A DNA stretch of 33,366 bases, from positions 72,127-105,492 of the forward strand of contig JAVZCJ010000004.1 of assembly GCA_038874475.1 (NCBI GenBank), read 5' to 3'. This document shows, piece after piece, positions 9,884 to 21,237 of this stretch. A program made the position numbers and the translations under genes. Origin of the DNA: Nitrososphaerota archaeon (GTDB taxonomy: Archaea > Thermoproteota > Nitrososphaeria_A > Caldarchaeales > JAVZCJ01). The notes below the pieces were generated by a model. That model had not been told where the DNA came from. It worked only from the letters and a program-made list of their open reading frames with translations, and did no database searches. How positions within the stretch are numbered: the first letter of the stretch is position 1; each line of letters starts with the position of its first letter.

Positions 9884-10474
9884 ATGTCTGAAATAACACC
9901 TATAAAATTAATTCCTGGAATAAAAATAGAACATAGTATAGATTATAAACAAGAAAGAGGATATTTATACATATATCTTAAAAAAGGTTGGTGGTCAATA
10001 GGTTATGAATTTAAAACTCTTACATATTCCTTGGGAGTCTCTTTAAGAACCCTTTATATAAAACCAGATATATCAGATGAAGCTCAAAGAATAATTTGGG
10101 CAATAGATGAAAAAACTGGAAAGCGTTATGCAAAAGAAATTCCAGATTGGTTAATAGGAGATGTTGAAGCTGATTTTAAAGTAATTACTCATACTATAAA
10201 TGAAATTGAAGAGGCAGAAGAACTAATTGAACCTAAATCAACAAAATCAATTCCAAAAATAGATGTTACATTAGAATATTATGAGAAAAATAAAATTTTA
10301 AAAATTCCATTTTATAAAGATGAAATAAGAATAAATATTGAAAATGAAAATTTAGAATATATTAGAAATAATAAGAAAATAATTAAAGTTTTTCCATTAA
10401 ATAAAGAAATTCATTTTTATGGAATAGAACCAAAAGTAAGAAAAGGTAAAGTTACTTTTAAAGAAGACCATTAA
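9884..10474 (+). CDS. Uncharacterised protein (196 aa), partly duplicated nearby
   Basis: I do not recognise this family. It is soluble and charged, with no signal peptide or membrane segment. The first 115 residues are rich in aromatic residues (K-K-G-W-W-S-I-G-Y-E-F) and may form beta sheets; a short acidic stretch (E-E-A-E-E-L-I-E, near 108-116) leads to a C-terminal part of about 75 residues predicted mostly beta. That end has a truncated copy on the opposite strand near 12.8 kb, so the domain exists in more than one gene. A TTTATA-rich element 30-40 bases before the ATG is the likely promoter. It converges with the 628-residue gene, whose 3' end is 36 bases away. The roughly 250 bases between tRNA-Thr and this gene show nothing recognisable. 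Confidence 0.65.
   Translation: MSEITPIKLIPGIKIEHSIDYKQERGYLYIYLKKGWWSIGYEFKTLTYSLGVSLRTLYIKPDISDEAQRIIWAIDEKTGKRYAKEIPDWLIGDVEADFKVITHTINEIEEAEELIEPKSTKSIPKIDVTLEYYEKNKILKIPFYKDEIRINIENENLEYIRNNKKIIKVFPLNKEIHFYGIEPKVRKGKVTFKEDH
10391..10449 (+). repeat. Left arm of a 59-bp imperfect inverted repeat
   Basis: This stretch, coding for F-P-L-N-K-E-I-H-F-Y-G-I-E-P near the end of the 196-residue protein, recurs in reverse complement at 12763-12821 with 56 of 59 bases identical. The two arms flank the 628-residue gene and the pseudogene before it. Confidence 0.85.
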
Positions 10475-10510: not shown

Positions 10511-12397
10511 CTATGATTTTTTGAACCATTTAGGAGCAGAAATTATTTGATAATCATAAGGATTTTCACTAGGAACCTTTGCAATTAATACATCAATTTC
10601 TACATATTTAGAATTAGGATCTATTCTATCTTCATCAAATCCAATTATTATCACAATTCCAGCTTTACTATCTTTAAAATCATCTTTCTTAAAATATTGA
10701 TCGATTTGCACTAATGCTTCATCTAACACGCTCTTAAATATTTTATTACGCTCTTCTATAGACTTTCCAGTTAGATCACAAGATTTTACTTCTTCTGGAG
10801 ATATTATTCCATCCAATTTTATTTTAAGATCCGATGGGGCCCATCTTCCTCCTTTTGCTGTTTCTCCTTCTGGCTCGTATCCTTTAATCTCAGATATTTT
10901 AAATCCGCATATCTCACCTATTGCTCCTTTTCTTACAGTATTTGATCCCGAACCATGCCATGCTTCTGCAGCATCTATATTTATCAACCATTTATCATTC
11001 TCATTTTTAATTTCTTTCACAAGACTTAATGGATCTACAAAATATAATGCACGTGTCCTTATATTTCCTCCTCCAGTATCATATTTAATTCTTAATCTAT
11101 CTTCATTAAGATCGATATCTTTTATTCTTCTTCCTGCATCTTCCTCGATTCCAGTATAGGTTTCTAAGATTATATTCCCATCTCCATCAGTAGCTACTCC
11201 TATTTTTATTTTATTAAATTCTGATTCTACTTCTCCTTTTATTGCAAGAAACCTTCCTTGATCAATGAAATACATTTCTACATTTTTTAATTTTAATGTC
11301 TTCTCTAAATTCAATTTTCTATTAATTATTTTAATTTCATTCTCAGATAATATTTTTATAATATGATAATCGTTTTTTGAATATTTTACTATATCGCTTA
11401 TTCTTATTTCATCAAATTTTCCTTTAATTAATTTATTATACCAATCTTTTGGATTTCTTATTATATCTTCTACTTTTACATAGAAAGTATCTGTTCCAAT
11501 TCTTTCTTGAAATTCCACACTTCCAAATCTATATTCTCTTTGCCCACTACCTCTTTTTACTATAATGAAGTTTGGCCCTTTATCTTCTGTAAATATTCTA
11601 AGAACTAAATAATCTCCTTCTTGAATATTAACATCTCCTAAAGACATTTTAATCATGTCTTCAAATATGCCTTTGCCTATTTCTACTACCGGCTCACTTT
11701 TAGATATTTTTCTTTCTTCAATTCCTAATCTACTTAATCCTTTTAAGAATATATCATACACATTTTTTTCATTAATTCCATTTTCTTTTATTTCTTCTCC
11801 AATTGCATTTAATATTTTATTAATTTTCTCTTTAGTTAATTTTCCATATGCTTTATTATTTGGTTCTCCATTATATGCTTTCTCTGCTATTATTAAGCAT
11901 TCCCAGAAAATCTCTGAACAAATTTTCAATATCTTTATTTTATTTATATATTCATTAGCACTTACATCTTCACTAATTTTAACATTTTCTTCTAAGAATT
12001 TCTTGAAAGGCTCACAATGCTTTGACCATGTGCTTACATCCATTGCATAATTTTCAACATTATTCACAATCTCTGAAATTCCTTTATCTTTACTTGCAAT
12101 TTCATCTAATTTTTTAGCAAGATTACTAATTTTATTATTTTCAGAAAATTCTATTTTATTATCTTTTAAACTCTTTATTTGTTTATATTTATAAAATATT
12201 GTTAAAGCATCAATTAATGGAGCAGTAACCCATGCTTTTAATATTTCTTTTGTATAATATATTCCTCCTTTATTTATTATTTTATTCTTTATTACACCAA
12301 TTGCAGTTGCTCCAAATGAATATGCAGCTACAAATATTTTTCCTGCAGCATATCCTTTCTCTTCTTCATCAACTTCTATAATACCTGAAATTTTCAA
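10511..12397 (-). CDS. Large uncharacterised protein with possible PD-(D/E)XK nuclease C-terminus
   Basis: A 628-residue protein of no family I recognise. Residues 1-240 are mostly helical with a hydrophobic patch near 20-36; 240-470 look beta-rich; the last 150 residues carry a suggestive nuclease pattern: G-A-I-G-E-I-C-G with E495, then P-S-D with D523, then E-E-V-K with E536 and K538, and strongly hydrophobic strands after. This order (helix Glu, Asp, Glu-x-Lys) is that of PD-(D/E)XK nucleases, but it is a motif reading, not a homology result. The start TTG at 12397 has no ribosome site or TATA element, and it overlaps 29 bases of a GC-richer pseudogene, so the original N-terminus or promoter may have been lost by insertion upstream. 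The gene is flanked by the inverted repeat. Possible roles: a defence or selfish-element nuclease. Confidence 0.6.
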   Translation of the reverse strand: MKISGIIEVDEEEKGYAAGKIFVAAYSFGATAIGVIKNKIINKGGIYYTKEILKAWVTAPLIDALTIFYKYKQIKSLKDNKIEFSENNKISNLAKKLDEIASKDKGISEIVNNVENYAMDVSTWSKHCEPFKKFLEENVKISEDVSANEYINKIKILKICSEIFWECLIIAEKAYNGEPNNKAYGKLTKEKINKILNAIGEEIKENGINEKNVYDIFLKGLSRLGIEERKISKSEPVVEIGKGIFEDMIKMSLGDVNIQEGDYLVLRIFTEDKGPNFIIVKRGSGQREYRFGSVEFQERIGTDTFYVKVEDIIRNPKDWYNKLIKGKFDEIRISDIVKYSKNDYHIIKILSENEIKIINRKLNLEKTLKLKNVEMYFIDQGRFLAIKGEVESEFNKIKIGVATDGDGNIILETYTGIEEDAGRRIKDIDLNEDRLRIKYDTGGGNIRTRALYFVDPLSLVKEIKNENDKWLINIDAAEAWHGSGSNTVRKGAIGEICGFKISEIKGYEPEGETAKGGRWAPSDLKIKLDGIISPEEVKSCDLTGKSIEERNKIFKSVLDEALVQIDQYFKKDDFKDSKAGIVIIIGFDEDRIDPNSKYVEIDVLIAKVPSENPYDYQIISAPKWFKKS

Positions 12398-12731
12398 TAA
12401 ATCTATTGAAAGCTTGGTCTCTAATATTAAAGTCTGGGCCGATCTTTAGAATAATTCTATCTCGTCTTCCATGCTGTTCTACCTCTATTTTGTCTTCATT
12501 CATCCCTAGTTCCTTGGCGACCTCTTCTTTCTTGAAACGCCCAGCTTCAATATTAATACGAACATTAAGCTGGTTTGGAAATGTTACAACAGTTATCCAA
12601 TTGTATTGGGCTAAGATGAATGCTACATATAACTCCAGAGAAGTTGGATACTCCGCTAACTTCCAAAACCTTCTACTGTTTGTTTGTTACACCTCTGATT
12701 CAAATGCCAACCTTGACCATTCTCGAGCCAT
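12369..12731 (-). pseudogene. Decayed foreign gene, interrupted by an in-frame stop
   Basis: On the minus strand a frame from ATG at 12731 reads M-A-R-E-W-S-R-L-A-F-E-S-E-V, meets TAA at 12687-12689, then continues without further stop for 105 codons (through F-W-K-L-A-E-Y-P-T-S-L-E-L and V-A-K-E-L-G-M-N-E-D) to TGA at 12369-12371. GC content and codon choice (GTC, GCC, CTG, CGT, GGG) are clearly richer than the neighbours and resemble the acetyltransferase-fusion gene at 18 kb. I do not recognise the protein. It has no obvious promoter, and its end overlaps the TTG start of the 628-residue gene. A single nonsense change in an otherwise clean frame suggests recent inactivation. Two separate small genes are a less likely alternative. 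Confidence 0.55.
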
Positions 12732-12762: not shown

Positions 12763-12821
12763 TTACCTTTTCTTACCATTGGTTCAATTCCATAAAAATG
12801 AATTTCTTTATTTAATGGAAA
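12763..12821 (-). repeat. Right arm of the 59-bp imperfect inverted repeat
   Basis: Reverse complement of 10391-10449 with three mismatches. Sequence identity stops abruptly at 12763, where the GC-richer segment begins, so this marks a recombination junction. Confidence 0.85.
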
Positions 12822-12866
12822 TGCTTTAAATAATTTTTTATTATAATTTTTTAAAAAAGGAAGATT
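12763..12866 (-). pseudogene. Truncated copy of the 196-aa gene's C-terminal region
   Basis: The frame reads N-L-P-F-L-K-N-Y-N-K-K-L-F-K-A-F-P-L-N-K-E-I-H..., closely matching the stretch that begins N-L-E-Y-I-R-N in the 196-residue protein encoded at 9884. Protein similarity reaches further upstream than the 59-bp DNA match, so this is the remains of a diverged paralogue, not merely a short DNA repeat. After V-R-K-G it runs into unrelated sequence and a stop at 12744-12746. No start codon or upstream domain survives; the space ahead now holds the promoter of the binding-protein gene on the other strand. Confidence 0.65.
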
Positions 12867-18010: not shown

Positions 18011-19129
18011 ATGCAGATTGTCGTCCACGAGATGCAACCAGGTGAAGAAAAAGAGGTTAAGAAACTTTTTACGAGGAGCCTTGGCATTACTGACAAGGTC
18101 ATCTTTCAACTTTCGTTTGAGGCAGCGCAGAAGAGCGCAAGAAAGGGAAGTGGAGTCACTTTAGTCGCAGAGCTCGAGGGAAAGATAGTTGGGTCAGTAT
18201 CTATGAGAATACAGGTTTTAAAAGGCAAGAGGACAGGTTTTATTGACGCGCTGGTCTCAGACAAAGAGCTTCGAGGGAGAGCTATTGGAAAATCCCTAGT
18301 AGAAGGAGCAATATTGTGGCTCGAGGAGCACGGATGTGAAGTCATCTATGCTACGGCCGACAGGTACAACTCTCCCTCATGGAACATATTCATACATAGG
18401 GGCTTCCATCCTTACGAGATACCAGAGCAGCTTAGGGACTATGGGCTAGACTTTCTAAAACTCTGGCTAACAGAGTTTCATTTCATAGGCTTCGGAACCT
18501 TCTTTCTTAGGCGAGATAAAGAACAAAGAAATTCTTGCGAAACAAGAGAGGTGGGACATTGGTTGGCTGCCCTGATAGGCATGTCCATAGTATGGTGGAT
18601 ACAAATATTGCGTGGTCAAGGATCGCTAATGCTTATCCCAATGGTTTCCTTGGCTGTAGCTATCAGCCTCCTAGCTCATGAGCTTTCGCAAAAGCTTGTT
18701 GCAAACAAACTTGATATAGAAACAACATTCAAAGCCTGGGGATCAGGAATATTTTTTAGCTGGCTGCTTGCGCTAGTCGGTAGCGTCTTCCCAGCGTATG
18801 GCTCAACATATGTGAAACAGCTAGACTGGCGTTATGACCCGGAAAAAGATAGGACTGGAATCGTATTCGCCATAGGTCCACTCGTCAGTCTGGCGCTCGG
18901 CTTCATATTCTGGGCAATATCAAAACTCACGGCTAAAAGTCTGATAGCGGTGCCAGCAACAGTCGGATACGTTACTAACCTATTGATCGTCATACTTAAT
19001 CTGATTCCGATTCAAGCGGCAGGGGGTTTCGTTTGGGATGGAAAAAAGATACTTAGGTGGAACAAGACCGCGTGGATCACGCTTGTTATAGCAACTTCCT
19101 TTCTAATTATGCTGGATTTTCTCCTCTAG
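18011..19129 (+). CDS. GNAT acetyltransferase fused to a degenerate M50 (site-2-protease-like) membrane domain
   Basis: Residues 1-155 form a GNAT domain; the acetyl-CoA loop is R-G-R-A-I-G-K-S-L at 88-96, and S-P-S-W-N-I-F-I-H-R-G-F-H-P is the usual C-terminal part. Residues 180-372 are membrane-embedded and match the M50 site-2-protease fold: A-H-E-L-S-Q at 222-227 takes the place of the zinc motif H-E-x-x-H, and L-I-P-I-Q-A-A-G-G-F-V-W-D-G-K (D343) corresponds to the N-P-x-P-x-x-x-x-D-G element. The second zinc His is Gln227, so proteolysis is doubtful. GC content and codons (CTC, GTC, GCG, AGG) are richer than all flanking genes, which points to transfer. A TTTATAAAC box centred near 17974 serves as promoter. 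Function: perhaps a regulatory membrane acetyltransferase; unproven. Confidence 0.75.
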   Translation: MQIVVHEMQPGEEKEVKKLFTRSLGITDKVIFQLSFEAAQKSARKGSGVTLVAELEGKIVGSVSMRIQVLKGKRTGFIDALVSDKELRGRAIGKSLVEGAILWLEEHGCEVIYATADRYNSPSWNIFIHRGFHPYEIPEQLRDYGLDFLKLWLTEFHFIGFGTFFLRRDKEQRNSCETREVGHWLAALIGMSIVWWIQILRGQGSLMLIPMVSLAVAISLLAHELSQKLVANKLDIETTFKAWGSGIFFSWLLALVGSVFPAYGSTYVKQLDWRYDPEKDRTGIVFAIGPLVSLALGFIFWAISKLTAKSLIAVPATVGYVTNLLIVILNLIPIQAAGGFVWDGKKILRWNKTAWITLVIATSFLIMLDFLL

Positions 19130-19448: not shown

Positions 19449-20597
19449 TTAAAGAGCATCAATAGTTAAAGGATATTTCCCATATTTTCTTGCTTCATCA
19501 ACCATTGTATATATATTTTCTATTTTACAATTTGCATGTAAAGAATTGCTTGATGCTAAAATAAATCCTCCTCCTTTACCTGCTGCATTTATGCATCTTC
19601 TTACATCTTTTCTTACATCTTCTTCTGTTCCATAAGGAAGAACATATCTACAATCTACATTTCCTACTAAACAAATTCTATCACCATACTTCTCTTTAAC
19701 TTCTGCTAGATCCATAACTCCAGGTTCAATTGGATGAAGACCTGATATTCCCGTATTAATTATATCATCTAATATTGGATAAAGGTAACCATCAGAATGT
19801 TTTAATACTGGTACCCCATTCTTTTTTCCTATATTAACAATTTCTTTTAAATATGGAAGTTCAAATTCTCTAAAGAACTTAGGACTCATAAGAGGGCCAT
19901 GATTATCTGCATAATCATCTGTAACAAATAGAATGTCTATGCCTACTTCAATCATTGCTTTTGCAAAACTTTGGCATGCTTTTCCAATCTTATCCATTAA
20001 TTTCTTTGCAAAACTTGGATTTCTATAAAAATCTATTACTAATTTATCAATTCCTCCTCTTACTTGAAATGCCATATGCCAACTACTATGAACTTGTCCC
20101 ATTGTAACAATGTCTTCATTTTTAACATTTTTCATAATTTTTTCCATCATTTCAATTATATCTGGATTAAATGCATTTGGAGGCTCGTATTTCTCTAAAT
20201 CTTCAATTGAATTAACAATCCCTCCAATAAAATATGTAGTTTTCCCTTCTATGCTTGTTTCCATTATTCTTCCCCATTGATCAATGAATTTTTTCCCATC
20301 AATAAATTTTGGTTTATATTTTTTATCTACAAGAGAATAATCGGAGAAAATTGGAGCTGCATCAAAATCAAGCTTTTTACATGCTTCTATTAATGCTGAT
20401 CTATATTTTATTGCAGATTCCCATGCTGTAATTGCAATACCGCTACTTAAATCTAAGCCAAATTTTGTTAATCCCAATCCCATATCCTTTTTTAAGATCT
20501 TCTCTACAATTGGTGGATCTATTGATAAATCTGTTATTGGCACATAGTCTGGTTCTTTCAATTCTAAAGCTTTAAAAAATCTTTCTCTATGATTCAT
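19449..20597 (-). CDS. UroD-fold corrinoid methyltransferase (MtaA/MtbA-like family)
   Basis: This 382-residue protein belongs to the uroporphyrinogen-decarboxylase superfamily, but its partner gene shows it is a methyltransferase rather than the haem enzyme. Characteristic stretches are M-N-H-R-E-R-F-F-K-A-L at the start, D-D-Y-A-D-N-H-G-P-L-M-S-P, K-H-S-D-G-Y-L-Y-P-I-L (H267, D269; MtaA enzymes have H-x-C here), V-G-N-V-D-C-R (C316) and S-L-H-A-N-C (C357), candidates for zinc binding. Members move methyl groups between a corrinoid protein and coenzyme M, tetrahydrofolate/methanopterin or a methylated substrate. The ATG at 20597 follows GGAGGT at seven bases and the stop of the corrinoid gene by one base, so the two genes form a tight operon. 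No separate substrate methyltransferase (MtxB) is nearby, so this protein might itself demethylate the substrate. Confidence 0.85.
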   Translation of the reverse strand: MNHRERFFKALELKEPDYVPITDLSIDPPIVEKILKKDMGLGLTKFGLDLSSGIAITAWESAIKYRSALIEACKKLDFDAAPIFSDYSLVDKKYKPKFIDGKKFIDQWGRIMETSIEGKTTYFIGGIVNSIEDLEKYEPPNAFNPDIIEMMEKIMKNVKNEDIVTMGQVHSSWHMAFQVRGGIDKLVIDFYRNPSFAKKLMDKIGKACQSFAKAMIEVGIDILFVTDDYADNHGPLMSPKFFREFELPYLKEIVNIGKKNGVPVLKHSDGYLYPILDDIINTGISGLHPIEPGVMDLAEVKEKYGDRICLVGNVDCRYVLPYGTEEDVRKDVRRCINAAGKGGGFILASSNSLHANCKIENIYTMVDEARKYGKYPLTIDAL

Positions 20598-20598
20598 T

Positions 20599-21237
20599 TT
20601 AACTACCTCCAACCCATTGCTTACATATTCTTAATCCATCAATAGCATTTCTTGCCCATGCATCAACTTCAGAATCTTTTGCTACTTTATCATTCACAGC
20701 AGCTCCTCCAATTATTACTTTTACTTTATCTCTTATCCTTTCTTTCTTTAATTCTTGAATAACATTTTTAAATTCTGGTATTGTAGTTGTTAAAAGAGCA
20801 GATAATCCTAATATTTTTGCATTATTATCTTTTACTGCTTTAACTATATCTTTAGAAGATACATCTACACCTAAATCAATAACTTTAAAATTGGATGAAT
20901 TTAGAAGCATTGCTACAATATTTTTACCAATATCATGCAAATCTCCTTTAACAGTGGCTAATACAACTGTAGCTATAGCTTTTTCTTCATCTTTTTTATA
21001 AAATGGTTCTATTATTTTTAATATTTCTTTTACGATTTCTCCTGCCATGATTAATTCTGATAAAAAATATTCATTATTTTCATATTTTTTACCAACAATA
21101 TCTAAAGCTTTTGAAATTGTTTTGAATATTTCATCCATTGATACTTCTTTAGAATAGACAATTTTTTTACAAATATCTATTGCTTTTTCAATTTCAAGAT
21201 TAATTATTGAATTTTCAAATTCATTTATCAAATTCAT
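20599..21237 (-). CDS. Corrinoid (B12-binding) protein of a methyltransferase system
   Basis: The 212-residue protein has the layout of MtbC/MtaC-type corrinoid carriers: a helical B12-binding-2 cap (about 1-85) and a Rossmann-like cobalamin domain with D-L-H-D-I-G at 99-104 (H101 is the lower cobalt ligand), G-L-S-A-L-L-T-T-T and I-I-G-G-A-A-V. It holds the methyl group on cobalt between the two half-reactions. Its stop codon region carries the ribosome site of the UroD-fold methyltransferase gene. A TTTATATA box 26 bases before the ATG gives a leaderless transcript. It is transcribed away from the aminotransferase gene across a 200-bp divergent control region with a palindrome. Confidence 0.92.
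   Translation of the reverse strand: MNLINEFENSIINLEIEKAIDICKKIVYSKEVSMDEIFKTISKALDIVGKKYENNEYFLSELIMAGEIVKEILKIIEPFYKKDEEKAIATVVLATVKGDLHDIGKNIVAMLLNSSNFKVIDLGVDVSSKDIVKAVKDNNAKILGLSALLTTTIPEFKNVIQELKKERIRDKVKVIIGGAAVNDKVAKDSEVDAWARNAIDGLRICKQWVGGS

Follow-up and report, generated by a model that had tools for sequence, protein, structure and literature searches.

Introduction

The window analysed here is a stretch of 33,366 nucleotides from a Nitrososphaerota archaeon (GenBank assembly GCA_038874475.1, contig JAVZCJ010000004.1), and it raises the question of what is encoded by a frame of 628 codons on its minus strand. A first-pass annotation had described the product as an unrecognised large protein, possibly of a new PD-(D/E)XK nuclease family, lying beside another unknown gene in the manner of toxin/immunity or defence gene pairs. 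The protein is indeed unrecognised, as no family was matched in Pfam, NCBIfam or PADLOC.

The genome comprises 1.92 Mb in 30 contigs, and its 16S rRNA gives a full-length match of 1539 bits to the archaeal SSU model, a model that also detects bacterial SSU. Genes near loci of the family described below, read by eye, include those for an AglB-like protein and for the small subunit of PolD type, and together with the SSU score they mark the genome as archaeal. Elsewhere in the window, also by eye, positions 18011–19129 encode what looks like an acetyltransferase domain ahead of a membrane part of several spans that contains HELSQ, possibly a GNAT/M50-type fusion, and positions 19449–21237 a pair of a corrinoid protein and a uroporphyrinogen-decarboxylase-like methyltransferase, which suggests methyl-group metabolism.

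A broken-off end of a giant protein

The 628 codons form one open frame with a TTG start (Table 1), and the last 370 residues of the product match the ends of other, giant proteins. DNA homology between the window copy and the gene of a 1763-residue paralogue begins abruptly near position 12404, 7 nt ahead of the TTG, so the assigned start falls within a conserved segment. Reading the frame as a whole protein of 628 residues is therefore untenable: the N-terminal half is missing, and by these alignments the product is the broken-off end of a giant surface-type protein, incomplete as a protein. Beyond the upstream flank, an ABC-transporter gene matches the sister species weakly and partially, and the junction for this reason looks specific to the window genome. 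An ORF fragment upstream of the breakpoint (approximately 12414–12656, minus strand) was considered as an insertion sequence and rejected, as it is a single copy with no relatives in 46 genomes.

Table 1. Positions in the window of the truncated gene, its parts and motif residues, and the putative immunity gene
Feature	Position	Strand	Evidence
628-aa ORF, 5′-truncated C-terminal cassette of a giant surface-type protein	10511..12397	−	Homology to 1763-aa paralogue from ~12404
Residues 1–250, end of conserved core	11648..12397	−	48% identity to middle part of 1763-aa protein
Residues ~258–460, pre-toxin segment common to other copies	11018..11626	−	22–29% identity; C8 copy 73%
Residues ~476–628, exchangeable nuclease-like tip, putative toxin domain	10514..10972	−	Paralogue alignment
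E495 (KGAIGE)	10913..10915	−	Invariant in 7 paralogues
D523	10829..10831	−	Invariant in 7 paralogues
E536-V537-K538	10784..10792	−	E in 6/7, V in 7/7, K in 4/7
Rearrangement breakpoint region	12398..12410	unassigned	Homology to intact relatives ends ~12404
Putative immunity protein, 196 aa, convergent neighbour gene	9884..10474	+	
Constant C-terminal block of putative immunity protein (DEIRIN...GIEPKV)	10319..10438	+	pN 0.06 vs pS 0.33 across copies
Inverted 82-nt remnant, 3′ end of another immunity gene	12763..12844	−	

Taken by itself, the ORF has close to an even chance of being a decaying, functionless fragment left by the rearrangement, a reading compatible with a toxin explanation for the family as a whole. 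The abrupt loss of the N-terminal half, an inverted immunity gene remnant in the flank, and degraded copies elsewhere, such as one with stops on contig C7 of the sister species, speak for such decay. On the other hand, all 628 codons are still open, dN/dS against the C8 copy is 0.56 and the adjacent immunity gene is intact. The dN/dS value and the open frame could fit either a recombination reservoir or a relic.

The giant proteins and their operon

The two intact giants, of 1526 and 1763 residues, are both encoded on contig C1 of the window genome (G000; the sister species of the same genus is G001). In each, an N-terminal hydrophobic signal-like segment is combined with a stalk rich in Ser and Thr, a hinge of sequence GGGGG, a conserved core and an exchangeable C-terminus, here called the tip; the core of the 1763-residue copy also holds a hydrophobic hairpin. 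Two genes precede the intact giants. One encodes a protein that has hydrophobic segments at both termini, read as a membrane-anchored surface protein; the other is a pilin-like gene, which matches Pfam DUF2393 (E=1e-8), is UpsA-like at a level far below the cut-off (E=4e-6), and has nine copies of more than 50% identity in G000. At the operon head at C4:116331 the giant is short and truncated. Several pilin-like copies and four tips are located at contig ends, where long repeats are expected to break an assembly. Besides the window copy, tips are found in G000 on C8, at C1:388343, on C14, at C4:131072 and on C7, and in G001 on C18 and C7.

A related tip ends the 1526-residue secreted-type protein and other giants, and this makes it very improbable that the window holds a toxin-antitoxin or defence pair that works inside the cell and has no relation to surface proteins, as the first-pass annotation implied, even though its two genes form a soluble pair and the TTG could begin a cytosolic protein. 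The PADLOC models likewise gave no match, which leaves the defence-gene reading without support; the defence-island reading was rejected on that ground.

The core is present in two of 398 genomes of the phylum, which are both species of the genus, with one further borderline match (E=6e-4). Tips and neighbour genes are absent from 42–44 other relatives, and pattern scans for relatives in GTDB r220 genome contigs and IMG/VR returned none. Among the genomes searched, the family was found only in one genus. Domain-profile searches, including Pfam, detected in it no known domain for toxicity, secretion or immunity.

Several loci depart from the common arrangement. The tip of the 1763-residue protein (L009:7332-10670, G000:C1) differs from the others and occurs once across 44 genomes, and its neighbour (L009:10707-11261) is a different gene on the same strand; the two may represent a second kind of toxin/immunity pair built on the common chassis. 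At a syntenic site beside a ParB-like gene (G001:C21 L135:10831-12522 vs G000:C4 edge L023) the pilin-like gene of the sister species is broken and neither giant nor immunity gene is present, an apparent loss of the module there. Decayed immunity and toxin remnants occur at L057:4595-4849 (G000:C8) and L025:1091-2492 (G001:C7), and the same leucyl-tRNA-synthetase-like gene adjoins them in both species.

Exchange of tips and co-segregation of the neighbouring gene

The copies of this family are mosaics, in which identity in the core does not go along with identity in the tip. The C7 and C14 copies are 93% identical in the core and 24% in the tip, and the G001-C18 copy and the 1526-residue protein show the same pattern (91% and 32%). 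The reverse is seen between C14 and G001-C18, whose cores share 23% identity, their tips 84% and their adjacent immunity genes 76%. These pairs display the constant N-terminal part and exchangeable C-terminal module that characterize polymorphic toxins. A neighbouring gene that moves with the tip is a further such feature: the gene adjoins the tip in 8/8 aligned copies, and its identity tracks that of the tip (r=0.83, reached in 2/720 permutations) and not that of the core (r=−0.21). The exchange of tips, together with a neighbour gene whose variation follows theirs, lends good support at the system level to the toxin/immunity pair first guessed for this locus, with toxicity of the one and immunity by the other as the likely functions.

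The neighbour is convergent with the tip gene in every copy save the 1763-residue one, where both lie on the same strand. In the window its 196-residue product is predicted to be soluble, without a TM-like segment. Selection acts unevenly along the gene: across copies pN and pS are nearly equal in the N-terminal part (0.32 and 0.31), whereas over the last ~40 aligned codons pN falls to 0.06 with pS at 0.33. Homogenization of the 3′ end at the DNA level was ruled out because pS in this block matches that of the rest of the gene; the block is instead kept by protein-level selection. At a site syntenic with the sister species, dS is 0.12 for the neighbour gene and 0.034 for a flanking NNR gene. 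The first-pass annotation had credited the neighbour with a duplicated C-terminal domain. The duplication is real, but it amounts to 82 nt of the 3′ end (10368–10449) that recur inverted beyond the breakpoint with 90% complementarity, and no complete second immunity gene is found at the repeat. An orphan immunity-like gene, divergent and encoding 188 residues, occurs elsewhere in the genome without a tip beside it (G000:C9:39084-39572; L056:5076-5639).

Is the tip a nuclease?

The residues on which the nuclease proposal was based, E495, P521-S522-D523 and E536-V537-K538, are located where they had been placed. In a single sequence such a motif is at chance level: the pattern E-x(20-35)-D-x(8-20)-[DE]xK occurs in 99.9% of shuffled versions of the 628 residues and in 78% of shuffled C-terminal thirds. 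It gains meaning from conservation across paralogues, for which seven divergent tips with 20–78% identity to the window copy were aligned. Eleven columns are invariant (G491, I493, E495, D523, P534, V537, G544, F554, F569, G580 and G586), and among them only E495 and D523 carry a charge. The remaining motif positions are conserved in part, as E536 is replaced by S in one copy and K538 by T, T and E in three; the absence of K538 from 3/7 tips means that some may be inactive or non-nuclease. The tip of the 1763-residue copy, different in sequence, likewise reads ADYVFGKDVIDVK by eye.

Comparison of the tip with 30 archaeal Mrr_cat-type sequences by hhalign places D523 and E536-x-K538 in register with the D and the final xK of those sequences, at a score equalled by 1/200 column shuffles. 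The same register is obtained with Hjc, at a score that 39/200 shuffles reach, which is shuffle level. Both profile scores are weak (Prob 2.3 for Mrr and 0.2 for Hjc). Pfam matched none of the seven tips, and a PDB profile search found no solved relative, its matches being designed helical proteins that reflect composition artefacts. Two AlphaFold2 single-sequence models had pLDDT values of 44 and 43 and were unusable, which leaves the fold unconfirmed. The PD-(D/E)XK assignment therefore gains from motif conservation and a weak in-register Mrr-type match and not from structure; on balance, we consider that the tip is probably such a nuclease.

The same conserved residues bear on whether the giants serve instead as variable adhesins or in self/non-self recognition, in the manner of VARTIG or variable pilins, with tip and neighbour acting as ligand and partner. 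Their surface-type architecture and weakly UpsA-like operon partner would suit this role, since variable regions of UpsA are described as deciding species recognition in Sulfolobales (PMC7064770; PMC8416519), as would the finding that no toxin domain was recognized in the giants. We regard it as unlikely, however, because the only invariant charged residues of the tip lie in the E/D/(E)xK pattern and a soluble neighbour without a TM-like segment would be an odd partner for a surface ligand; the pattern fits a toxin with a cytoplasmic immunity protein better.

Comparison with known systems

Like the window family, polymorphic toxin systems have a long secreted-type protein with a constant N-terminal part and an exchangeable C-terminal module, a co-moving (here putative) immunity gene and stand-alone toxin-immunity cassettes (Zhang et al., 2012; PMC3482391). 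Tips of the restriction-endonuclease fold are common among them (PMC3482391; PMC6393860), and the Tox-REase-7 signature GxxxE, IxD, ExK (PMC3482391) resembles the KGxIxE, (A)D, ExK of the window family. Their immunity gene is usually, although not strictly, downstream on the same strand, whereas here it is convergent outside the 1763-residue copy. The window family also has no recognized bacterial delivery domain, and an archaeal pilin-like operon stands in place of a known bacterial secretion route. Compared by sequence alone with nucleases of the Mrr/Hjc type, the tip has the same order E...D...ExK, but the K is not universal among tips of the family.

Two archaeal systems are also close. 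The archaeal polymorphic toxins of Makarova et al. (2019, mBio), as presented in papers that cite that work (PMC8416519; PMC6393860), share predicted nuclease tips and a contact-dependent logic; the window family differs in being limited to one genus among the genomes searched. The VARTIG modules described from Thermococcales likewise combine large surface proteins, a recombining variable C-terminus and co-varying adjacent genes, which are downstream in VARTIG (PMC8416519). VARTIG tips, however, are Ig domains with no nuclease found there, and VARTIG neighbours are membrane proteins (PMC8416519), whereas in the window family Pfam found no Ig domain and the neighbours are predicted to be soluble.

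Proposed mechanism and significance

Taking these lines together, we think it likely that the locus belongs to an archaeal surface-displayed, polymorphic-toxin-like system with nuclease-like tips, in which the window copy would be a displaced toxin-immunity cassette. The alignments show directly the modular build of the giants, the swapping of tips, the neighbour gene that travels with them, the truncation of the window copy and the conserved acidic residues; surface display, delivery, nuclease action, toxicity and immunity are inferred. In intact copies, a three-gene operon encodes the giant secreted-type protein together with a type-IV-pilin-like protein and a putative surface protein anchored in the membrane. 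After export the giant would be displayed on its stalk, where it may be linked to the pilin-like protein, and when cells touch, its tip would reach the neighbouring cell. This tip is probably a nuclease of the PD-(D/E)XK type and may then enter that cell and cut nucleic acid. The soluble product of the convergent gene would probably serve as the immunity protein that lets siblings survive; its fast-evolving N-terminal part would recognize the tip, and its constant C-terminal part would carry out a task common to all copies. Tip and immunity gene are exchanged together between cores by recombination, and the window copy, now without its secretion part, may persist either as a silent reservoir for recombination or as a relic in decay.

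A more specific proposal, which we offer tentatively and hold rather more doubtful than not, is that of a lineage-specific archaeal contact weapon built from archaeal parts, with giants encoded alongside their own pilin-like and anchor proteins, exchangeable nuclease tips, convergent constant-plus-variable immunity genes and as many as about nine loci in a genome. In 2012 archaeal polymorphic toxins were reported to be uncommon and to have a probable bacterial origin (PMC3482391), and as of 2021 they were predicted but not experimentally characterized (PMC8416519). A multi-locus family of one genus, with visible tip swapping, a co-varying immunity candidate and a pilin-like operon partner, offers pairs that can be tested directly and a concrete model of toxin display and exchange by an archaeon.
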